From positions 9,486,001 to 9,550,000 of the forward strand of contig NZ_CP109149.1 of the NCBI RefSeq assembly GCF_035920345.1: DNA of 64,000 bases. The letters run 5' to 3'. Under the pieces are notes generated by a model. It saw only the letters and a list, made by a program, of their open reading frames with translations. It had not been told where the DNA came from and ran no database searches. Of this stretch, positions 5,384-10,232 are shown piece by piece. Each line of letters begins with the position of its first letter. Position 1 is the stretch's first letter. Position numbers and translations under genes: made by a program. The DNA comes from Nocardia vinacea (GTDB taxonomy: Bacteria; Actinomycetota; Actinomycetes; Mycobacteriales; Mycobacteriaceae).

Positions 5384-7336
5384 TCAGATCCGGGCACCTT
5401 TGGCGCGGTTGCAGGCGCGGCAGAGGATCTGCAGATTGGTCGCACTCGTCGCACCACCGCGGCTGAGCGGGATGATGTGATCGAATTCCAGGTAGTGGCC
5501 GTCGCCGCATTCGACGCATTTACCGCCGTCACGTTGCCACACCTCGGCCTTGACTTCCTGCGGGATGCTGCGCGTGTCGCGCTGACCGGGCGTGAGCACC
5601 AGGCGTTTGGCGACCCGCAGCGCACCTTCCAGCGCGGCCGCGACGTAATCCGGATCGTCGACATCGAAGGTGGCGCCGCCGCGGGACGAGGTCGCCGCGA
5701 CGACCACCGAACGCTGCTCGACATGCACCGAAACCACCCGGTTCCACGGCAATTCGGTGCCGGTATCGGTACCGACGAACCGCAGCTTCTTATTGCTGGC
5801 GATCAGCCTGCCGTCGGTGAGCTTCGGGCCCTTGGCGAGCCGGCGGACGTGCACGGCGGGCAGATCCACGTGCACCTTCTCCTCCGGATCCAGATGCAGG
5901 CCGGGCGTTCGCACCACCGGCAGATCCCCGCCGCGCAACCGCGACAGGGTGCGCCCGCGATACATCCGCCTGCGCAGATCCTCGACCAGCGGTCCGCTGA
6001 GCGCCAGCTCTTCGATCGCGTACTCGAACGCCTCGAACTCGGTCTGCTCGATCTCGCCATCCGCGAATGCGAAGGCGACCAGTCGCTCGACATAGGTGAG
6101 CGCCACATCCCGCAGCGCCGCCCGGCCCAGGCCCTCATCGATTCGCTGATACCGCAACGACGCCCACAGCGCATCCCACTCCGCACCGCGCGGTCCGGCT
6201 GCGGTCAGCGCCCGCCAGGCCTGGGTATGCCAGTGCGTCAGGAATTCCTCGATTTCGTGCTCGCAACTCTGGCACGGCGCGAGACCGCCGAACAGCTTGC
6301 GGCGCCGGGGATTTCCGCACCGCTCACAGCTGCGAGGGCCGGCCTGACTCCGTTCGTATGTGGCACTGGTCCATTCGGCCCCATCCCACCAACGCAGCCG
6401 CGAGGGATTCTCGGGATCCGAATGCCAGTCCGCGCGTTCGGGATTCGGTGGTGGTGGTATCGGCGGTTCGACTTCGTGGCGCTGGCGCCGAAGGTCGACC
6501 GGCCTGCCTGGTCGCGGGCGGGCAGGCCGTTCGTCGGCCGAGTCGGCGCGATGGTCGGCTCGGTCCCGGGGCCCGGTGGCGGCGGTGTGGTGCCCAGTCT
6601 GATCCCCACGGTGTGCGCCGAGCGTCCATGGTCGGGCCGGTGCTTCATCGGGCCGATCATGCTGTCCAGTCGGGTCGGCGCGGGTGCCGTCCTGGTCCGA
6701 GGGGGCGGTGTCGAGCTGCTGGGGACCGGGCGACCCGGCCGGCGCTGTGCCGGCCGAGACACGTTGCTGCATTGGGTAAGTGGGTATCCGAGCCGGATGT
6801 GCCGCGTGCGGGCGATCGGGTGTCGGCTCGGCGGGGCCGTCGATGGTGACGCCGAATTCGGTGACGAGACCGGGGAGCCCACTGGCCCAACCCTGGCCGA
6901 TCGCGCGGAAACGCCACTGTCCGTCGCGGCGGTAGAACTCGCCGAACATCATTGCGGATACCGCATCGGGATCGGTGATCTCGAACCGGGCGATCGGCCC
7001 GTGGGCGGCCTCGATGGTGAGGGTCAGATCCGCGATATCGCCGAAGGTGCCGTCGTCGATCGATCCGGCGACCACGATGCGCGCCACATCCGATTCGGTG
7101 CGCGGTAGCGACACGCTCAGGCGCGCCGTCCCCGGTGCGGGTTCCTGGTCGAGCGTCACCGCCTGCGACATATGTCGGGGTGCATTGAAGAACACCAGAT
7201 CCCGATCGGTGCGCACCGTCCCCGCCTCCGCCAGCAACAGCGCGTGCGCATCCATCGCATGCCCCGACCGCCATGAAACAACCACGGCAAGAAGGGAAGT
7301 CGGCACCGCCGCATTGGCCCCTTTACTGAGTTTCAT
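5384..7336 (-). CDS. TerD - DUF2510 - zinc ribbon - TerB-like - PH-like - HNH multidomain protein
   Basis: This 650-aa protein joins several modules. Residues ~1-170 are a TerD (tellurium-resistance/stress) domain, with MKLSKGANAAVP, RTDRDLVFFN, ITDPDAVSAMMFGEFYRR and WRFRAIGQGW. A Pro/Arg-rich linker (~170-290) leads to a DUF2510 motif with RWWDGAEWTSATY and a two-Cys-pair ribbon (CERCGNP, CQSCEHE). Next comes a helical region with FAFADGEIEQTEFEAFEYAI that looks TerB-like, a beta-rich region (LTDGRLIASNKKLRFVG) like bacterial PH-type modules, and a C-terminal HNH nuclease (CVECG, FDHIIPLSRGG, LCRACN). Ter proteins combined with nucleases are known from comparative genomics; the function here is inferred as stress- or phage-responsive DNA cleavage. 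ATG 7336 starts the conserved TerD sequence. The gene is monocistronic. Confidence 0.8.
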   Translation of the reverse strand: MKLSKGANAAVPTSLLAVVVSWRSGHAMDAHALLLAEAGTVRTDRDLVFFNAPRHMSQAVTLDQEPAPGTARLSVSLPRTESDVARIVVAGSIDDGTFGDIADLTLTIEAAHGPIARFEITDPDAVSAMMFGEFYRRDGQWRFRAIGQGWASGLPGLVTEFGVTIDGPAEPTPDRPHAAHPARIPTYPMQQRVSAGTAPAGSPGPQQLDTAPSDQDGTRADPTGQHDRPDEAPARPWTLGAHRGDQTGHHTAATGPRDRADHRADSADERPARPRPGRPVDLRRQRHEVEPPIPPPPNPERADWHSDPENPSRLRWWDGAEWTSATYERSQAGPRSCERCGNPRRRKLFGGLAPCQSCEHEIEEFLTHWHTQAWRALTAAGPRGAEWDALWASLRYQRIDEGLGRAALRDVALTYVERLVAFAFADGEIEQTEFEAFEYAIEELALSGPLVEDLRRRMYRGRTLSRLRGGDLPVVRTPGLHLDPEEKVHVDLPAVHVRRLAKGPKLTDGRLIASNKKLRFVGTDTGTELPWNRVVSVHVEQRSVVVAATSSRGGATFDVDDPDYVAAALEGALRVAKRLVLTPGQRDTRSIPQEVKAEVWQRDGGKCVECGDGHYLEFDHIIPLSRGGATSATNLQILCRACNRAKGARI

Positions 7337-7485
7337 CGTACTCGAACTATGCCACGAACCACCGACACGCCGACTTCGGCGGTCCATACCTTCGGCGATG
7401 CGAGCGAGTGCGCGGCGATGCGACACCAAACCGGTCGGTCGGGGATATCCGGCCTCGAGGGCTATGGGTGCGGCAGAGTGGAGGG

Positions 7486-7974
7486 ATGACTACCCCGAAG
7501 GGTGCGGGCCGGAAGGCCTCGACTCCGAAGGCGCCGGGTGGGCGGGTGCCGAGTCCCGGCGATGTTCTGGCGGCCGCGCAATCGGCGGTGGAGGCGGCAC
7601 AGTCGGCGGCGAGTCAAGTATTGGATGCCGCACAACTTACGGCCGGTCAGGCCTTCGATGCGGCGGTGCGGCTGCCACCGGCCTCGGCGCAGTTGGCGGC
7701 GCAGCTGCCGGATCTGATCGAGAGCCTCTCGATCGCCGTCGACCGGCTCAACTCCACCATCGATCGCCTGGACCGCACCCTGGCGCTGGCGGATCCGGCC
7801 TTCGCCGCCTACGACCGACTGCTGCCCCGCCTGGAGGCGATGATCGGCCTCGGCGAAGACCTCTTCACGGCCCTCGCCAAACTCCCCGGCGTCTCCCTCC
7901 TCGGCCGCTTCACCGGCAAGCCCACCGAACCGCCCGCGCCTCCCGAACCCCCAAAACGCGGCCGCCGCAAATAG
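7486..7974 (+). CDS. Hypothetical helical protein, Ala/Pro-rich
   Basis: I do not recognise a family for this ~162-aa protein. It has a basic, Pro-rich N-terminus (TTPKGAGRKASTPKAPGG), a long alanine-rich amphipathic region (VLAAAQSAVEAAQSAASQVLDAAQ), a segment DRLNSTIDRLDRTLALADPA that may form a coiled coil, and a basic Pro-rich tail (PPEPPKRGRRK). There is no signal peptide or membrane span, and it resembles small phasin-like or nucleoid-associated proteins only in composition. The start is uncertain: GAGGG lies almost directly before ATG 7486, and GTG codons occur slightly upstream. It ends 5 bp before the convergent pabAB gene. Confidence 0.55.
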   Translation: MTTPKGAGRKASTPKAPGGRVPSPGDVLAAAQSAVEAAQSAASQVLDAAQLTAGQAFDAAVRLPPASAQLAAQLPDLIESLSIAVDRLNSTIDRLDRTLALADPAFAAYDRLLPRLEAMIGLGEDLFTALAKLPGVSLLGRFTGKPTEPPAPPEPPKRGRRK

Positions 7975-7979
7975 CAGAC

Positions 7980-10064
<2,085 letters not shown>

Positions 10065-10232
10065 CGTGCTCCGAACCCTACGCCGCGCCGGGCGGTGCAA
10101 ACTGTTGTCATGTGCCTTCAGTTAGGTTCGGCGCGTGCCTGCGCCCTACTATGGCCGGAGCAAGGCGCGGAGGTGAGATCGTGATAGTTGTTGATATTCA
10201 TGCTCTCGAGCGACAACTGATTTGGAGAGAAC

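Follow-up and report, generated by a model that had tools for sequence, protein, structure and literature searches.

The gene at positions 5384 to 7336 of the window, by which we mean the whole stretch of 64,000 nucleotides from Nocardia vinacea that was analysed, encodes a single chain in which a TerD domain is joined, through a long linker and a DUF2510 domain, to a zinc ribbon, a probable TerB domain, a PH-like domain and an HNH endonuclease domain. We read this protein as a signal-gated DNA nuclease of the Ter stress and conflict kind, with its target left unspecified, and we put the chances of this reading at about even. The gene, its domains and two of its neighbours lie as follows.

5384..7336, minus strand: whole gene, 650 amino acids plus stop
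6854..7333, minus strand: TerD domain, residues 2-161, without the calcium signature
6467..6841, minus strand: Pro/Ala/Arg-rich linker, residues 166-290, disordered in the model
6338..6427, minus strand: DUF2510 domain, residues 304-333
6263..6328, minus strand: zinc ribbon with four cysteines, C337, C340, C355 and C358
5933..6271, minus strand: TerB-like domain of five helices, residues 356-468
5588..5911, minus strand: PH/GRAM-PH-like domain, residues 476-583
5387..5569, minus strand: HNH endonuclease domain, residues 590-650
7408..7974, plus strand: divergent neighbour of 188 amino acids, without Pfam or PADLOC match
7980..10100, minus strand: pabAB-type gene with GATase and chorismate-binding domains, fixed core neighbour

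The plus strand across 5384..7336 is mostly open too. Opposite-strand open frames are common in GC-rich DNA, and we keep to the minus strand because homology, selection and domain content all favour it. Scoring of 7,993 candidates gave 378 homologues of the 650-residue protein. Those that align over the whole query are 61-97% identical to it, the closest among the matches listed being from Nocardia vinacea (97%). Where an organism is named among the 120 matches listed it is always a Nocardia, bar one mixed cluster that names Streptomyces gardneri and Nocardia sputi. The original prediction, a one-chain fusion that starts with a calcium-type TerD and ends with an HNH nuclease, holds for all the parts, the TerB part as probable, but not for the calcium type. 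The WWDGxxW motif that it pointed out is indeed that of a DUF2510 domain, and its two pairs of cysteines make up the zinc ribbon. The linker from the end of TerD to the WWDG could be measured in 118 of 121 proteins, in which both marks were found, and is 42 to 336 residues long (median 129).

The TerD domain scores 103.8 bits against a Pfam cut-off of 25.3 and has a fold match too. The solved TerD chains 2kxt and 3ibz carry an acidic stretch, GDN.TG.G.GDDE, which we take to be calcium-binding. The Nocardia protein lacks this signature and has, when aligned to the two chains, a shorter and nearly neutral stretch at the same position; GDN.TG, the first part of the signature, was found in none of the 121 proteins checked. 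A TerD of the calcium type is rejected on this signature. The genome of N. vinacea itself has 15 TerD places, and among the 13 that were translated the full acidic signature is present in four and a variant of it in a fifth.

Sequence models match the middle of the chain weakly, the zinc ribbon as a double zinc ribbon in six of 41 aligned members and the PH part as bPH_3 in six of 41. Residues 476-583 have the barrel of seven strands, closed off by a helix at the C-terminal end, that places them in the PH superfamily, and the PH fold that had been expected within residues 350-570 is thus there. The TerB fold expected in the same region is a segment of five helices, weak by sequence, for which a structure search gave 2h5n, presumably TerB-like, at E values of 0.87 to 3.5 and nothing convincing; residues 356-468 are probably a TerB domain. 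The HNH domain is over its cut-off (48.6 bits against 21.4), its metal-site and catalytic residues are invariant in 57 aligned proteins and the full residue pattern is found in 234 of 237 proteins, so that the site is intact, as first read. It is also the slowest-changing domain of the chain. An HNH domain is what the protein has in common with the nucleases of the IscB, Cas9 and McrA types. Its score with the IscB model, 40.9 bits, is far below the cut-off of 175, and membership of the IscB/Cas9 group was rejected because the match is confined to the HNH part (residues 593-648). Models of 14 PADLOC families match the protein up to an E value of 1, and 13 of these matches lie within residues 585-650; the sole one beyond the HNH is a weak match of PDC-S48 to residues 400-482 (E 0.031).

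In Nocardia this is a core gene. It was present in 22 of 23 other Nocardia genomes when the 30 best candidates were scored in each, split over two contig pieces in one of them (G015), and among the rows listed it is found in 51 of 52 Nocardia genomes, its own included. It is absent from G006 and G548, where all 52 and 65 candidates were scored. The place is fixed as well: in 19 of 22 loci the gene adjoins pabAB or the next conserved gene, and in the remaining three (L029, L039 and L040) the contig ends at the pabAB side. Conserved core orthologues with no phage effect had been named beforehand as evidence against the first reading, and within Nocardia the core part of this is what we find. The C-terminal 325 residues evolve about as slowly as the adjoining pabAB, with identities to nine relatives of 97, 83, 80, 80, 79, 78, 78, 74 and 75%, against 97.7, 76.5, 75.3, 73.9, 76.3, 74.6, 74.5, 75.7 and 79.1% for pabAB of the same genomes. 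Over these 325 residues the dN/dS by Nei-Gojobori between our protein and other Nocardia is 0.06-0.23 overall and 0.00-0.07 in the HNH among the pairs listed (against L054 it is 0.12 overall, with a dN of 0 in the HNH), and the maxima among the other pairs listed are 0.36 overall, 0.63 in TerB and 0.29 in the HNH. The intact HNH site is kept by purifying selection. Gene calls at the loci of relatives were made by a GC-composition script, by which some genes are mis-called; the strand of L156 was re-read from the translation, and the homologue at L034 was placed by search coordinates. Some Nocardia carry in addition a paralogue group, B, with the same order of domains (e.g. L026:8693-10492 and L128:9285-11036), at a site shared by these two loci, which were the ones viewed, and with neighbours that we take to be dxr, a site-2 protease and ispG.

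The gene and its divergent 188-residue neighbour start 71 bp apart, and this gap is possibly a shared control region. About 7 kb off and 1.6 kb before the start of the window lies a convergent TerF-type gene (G000:C1:9483182-9484438, or L009:13182-14438), which is a TerD-vWA protein with 261 bits for vWA-TerF-like and 92 bits for TerD. TerF was found in 14 of 24 Nocardia genomes, the present one included, and in ten of the 14 the two genes converge and lie 0.9-10.5 kb apart, although these ten loci are not independent because gene order is inherited. Nine of the ten Nocardia that have no TerF still carry the gene, and a TerF partner is therefore not needed. The idea that the gene stands alone as a self-contained system is right for its immediate surroundings and has to be qualified by this recurrent TerF. 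A Pfam scan of ten neighbours found no Ter biosynthetic gene, and TerF is their only link to a Ter operon. PADLOC at 0.001 gave no match in the ten flanking genes, which by Pfam are metabolic, regulatory, TerF or without a match. A defence island at the Nocardia locus is not supported, given these two results and the fixed core place. Whether orthologues lie in such islands was one of the checks first proposed; relatives that lack TerD do turn up in prophages and, in one case, next to type I restriction genes.

Among the rows listed for 401 genomes of the family, 51 Nocardia have the module of zinc ribbon, TerB, PH and HNH, as do 10 of the 349 other genomes. Five of these ten have it without TerD and five fused to TerD, the fusion being judged by translation and the TerD tree and not by a Pfam scan; G600, outside the ten, has an HNH match only. 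We read the surroundings of the five TerD-less and five fused loci case by case, which is not a census and has no random-gene baseline. Two of the TerD-less genes are in prophages, that of G220 with head, tape measure and integrase genes and that of G443 with tail, tape measure and endolysin genes. The TerD-less gene of G352 (L156:9346-10239) adjoins the type I restriction genes hsdM-hsdS-hsdR, NB-ARC and PDC-S60-like genes lie near, and the last part of its HNH falls out of frame. One TerD-less locus is flanked, at 7-10 kb, by transposases and an integrase, and at L155, also without TerD, five neighbours have no Pfam matches and four of them no PADLOC matches. A profile scan of neighbours among the fused loci was made for L160 only; here the TerD-fused gene (L160:9533-11377, from G467) is bordered on one side by small genes and an integrase, and the locus resembles the margin of an element that has integrated.

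A search with a TerD-less module protein gave 64 matches, 44 of which cover at least half of the query and 20 the HNH end only. Two proteins on short metagenome contigs have other domains before the module, an IrrE-type peptidase in P0264 and Clp_N in P0280, and the front sensor may therefore be exchangeable. In IMG/VR, 12 of the 80 loci kept (91 in all) cover at least 200 residues of the module. Four of the 12, at L172, L173, L175 and L176, are open reading frames of 322-345 residues without TerD, and tail, lysis or integrase families are present on four of the five contigs scanned (L172-L175, not L176). Another of the 12 is TerD-fused; it lies at L174:4985-6700, on a contig predicted to be viral that also has an integrase (IMGVR_UViG_2627854286_000002, the same contig as L228). 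No plasmid record covers 80% of the Nocardia protein. Phage records gave only HNH-sized matches to P0238, over at most 27% of it, and no match to P0249 at 1e-12, and a first viral scan with P0238 as query gave no relative. In 396 genomes of the wider Actinomycetota the module is present in the three Nocardia drawn, and six other genomes have matches at the HNH end, one of which reaches residue 213 of the 327-position model. In a sample of the order 263 of 298 genomes match at 0.001, and among the rows listed only seven Nocardia and G220 do so over the whole module. In most genomes these searches scored the best five to seven candidates, so copies may be missed.

A search of plasmids found two Deinococcus proteins named ‘TerD family’ that match the C-terminal half of the Nocardia protein at 37-39%. 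The relative in D. radiophilus, P0301, has the order TerD-Zn-TerB-PH-HNH (92.7 bits for TerD and 50.5 bits for HNH) and opens a complete Ter operon. The row runs from this TerD-HNH gene through TerD, TerF, TerD and TerD to DUF475/TerC, and divergent from it are ATPgrasp_Ter, PRTase_2, HAD hydrolase, AIM24, StiP and C-C_Bond_Lyase genes; some of the Ter biosynthetic genes are named for their Ter role by Pfam. D. radiodurans carries a homologue too (WP_162177623.1), with no Ter operon within the 19 kb viewed.

In the phylogeny of the module, from which four long-branch rows (P0280, P0279, G332 and P0266) were left out, the fused forms of Deinococcus group with TerD-less proteins (100/100), the fused clade of Mycobacteriales is separate (100/99), and a single clade of all fused forms is rejected with a p-AU of 0.004, which carries a long-branch warning. 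In the TerD phylogeny the fused TerD of Deinococcus joins the TerD domain that TerF carries in D. radiophilus (100/99), and a single fused clade is rejected with a p-AU of 0.003 in a test that includes the stray fused row G332, placed apart from the other fused rows without strong support. Because both trees reject a single fused clade, TerD has probably been joined to the nuclease twice, and two fusions would be the simplest reading of both trees; a single old fusion, followed by losses and domain replacement, could strictly speaking still account for them. A direction from phage to core gene is only what we infer, because the trees are unrooted. That the same two partners were joined repeatedly is evidence for a joint function of TerD and the nuclease.

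TerD, TerB, PH and HNH domains are known already, and Ter modules in conflict systems have been proposed before. Ter-dependent stress response systems are reportedly the subject of work by Anantharaman, Iyer and Aravind from 2012. That work was outside the reach of our literature search, which found no description of a TerD-DUF2510-Zn-TerB-PH-HNH chain. As far as the searches reach, what is new is the exact chain, its core status in Nocardia, the free module in prophages and the repeated fusion. TerD and TerB-type domains are what the protein shares with the Ter systems, and in D. radiophilus the related gene belongs to a full operon that also has ATPgrasp_Ter, PRTase_2, StiP, TerF and TerC-like genes, whereas the Nocardia gene has no such biosynthetic gene among its ten neighbours and has the nuclease in the same chain. 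TerF, a neighbour here, is built likewise from an N-terminal TerD and another C-terminal module, which is a vWA domain in TerF and Zn-TerB-PH-HNH in our protein. In the parts of the source that we draw on, the Shango system (PMC10250203) also couples a TerB-type domain to nucleic-acid processing, but it has three genes, for a TerB-like protein, a helicase and an ATPase, with no HNH or TerD named there, and in tests against phages it was anti-phage. Other papers, in the passages drawn on, describe TerB and TerD as possible sensors and TerF and TelA as submembrane parts (PMC7824862), TerD as a protein that may bind nucleotide derivatives (PMC7159879), an anti-phage system that depends on TerD and has an McrBC-like part (PMC3710099) and a fusion of TerB to MmcQ/YjbR, not to HNH (PMC7641849). 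From excerpts of two further papers, TerB and TerD proteins of D. radiodurans are raised after UVC/vacuum and likewise by gamma radiation (PMC5731708), and Ter genes appear in a table of radiation-related genes (PMC1978522).

The domain parts, together with the D. radiophilus fusion inside a Ter operon, suggest a signal-controlled nuclease. We hypothesize that TerD and TerB would bind the signal, for which a metal or a nucleoside-like metabolite has been suggested in Ter systems, and that the PH fold and the zinc ribbon would put the protein at the membrane or at a partner; the membrane is a guess, because PH folds also serve protein contacts. The long linker would hold the nuclease apart until the signal comes, and the HNH would then nick or cut the DNA of an invader or the cell's own damaged DNA. 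In Nocardia, a nuclease with prophage-borne relatives of its module is a fixed core gene. The stress or phage-defence nuclease first proposed is supported in part: the domains, the D. radiophilus operon and the TerD-less relatives in prophages and next to restriction genes favour it, while the missing calcium signature, the fixed core gene, the nearby TerF in many Nocardia and the lack of PADLOC matches nearby speak against it as first put.

A dedicated anti-phage defence, where a signal derived from infection makes the HNH cut phage DNA or leads to abortive cell death, would agree with the TerD-less genes in the prophages of G220 and G443, with the IMG/VR loci and the phage-type families on four of five scanned contigs, with the hsdM-hsdS-hsdR, PDC-S60-like and NB-ARC genes around the G352 copy, and with the anti-phage activity described in the excerpt on the TerB-bearing Shango (PMC10250203). 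We nevertheless find it rather unlikely, since the gene is near-universal, syntenic and slow-changing in Nocardia, unlike the patchy genes of defence. Its PADLOC matches are HNH-sized, bar the weak PDC-S48, the ten flanking genes have none, the G352 copy is the one that is out of frame, and the context cases stand without a random-gene baseline. The core status, fixed position and purifying selection would suit a housekeeping nuclease for DNA repair or recombination, with TerD and TerB as regulators of stress level and invaders not involved, as would the shared place of paralogue group B in the two loci viewed and the rise of TerB and TerD in D. radiodurans after UVC/vacuum, according to the part of that paper we draw on (PMC5731708). 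This is still quite unlikely, as at least two Nocardia (G006 and G548) are missing the gene and relatives of the module sit on prophages. That the HNH only binds, with the protein acting as scaffold or regulator, is most improbable; cutting is predicted from sequence, but the metal and catalytic residues are invariant in the 57 aligned proteins, the pattern is kept in 234 of 237, and no part of the chain changes more slowly.

The signal-gated nuclease of the Ter kind is thus the reading that we prefer. We would also venture a bolder idea, which is possible although doubtful: the missing effector of Ter systems may be the mobile Zn-TerB-PH-HNH nuclease, attached to TerD on at least two occasions, in Mycobacteriales and in Deinococcus, as a one-chain receptor that would read the Ter signal and cut DNA, and in Nocardia a module otherwise seen in phages may have become a guardian kept by almost the whole genus.

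The function of Ter systems and the targets of their sensors have long been debated. A nuclease that was probably joined to TerD more than once, and that is found once inside a complete Ter operon, is a concrete candidate effector, and the homologue in D. radiodurans puts it in a tractable laboratory organism that is not pathogenic. In Nocardia, a module of prophages and of a restriction neighbourhood is kept as a core gene of the genus.
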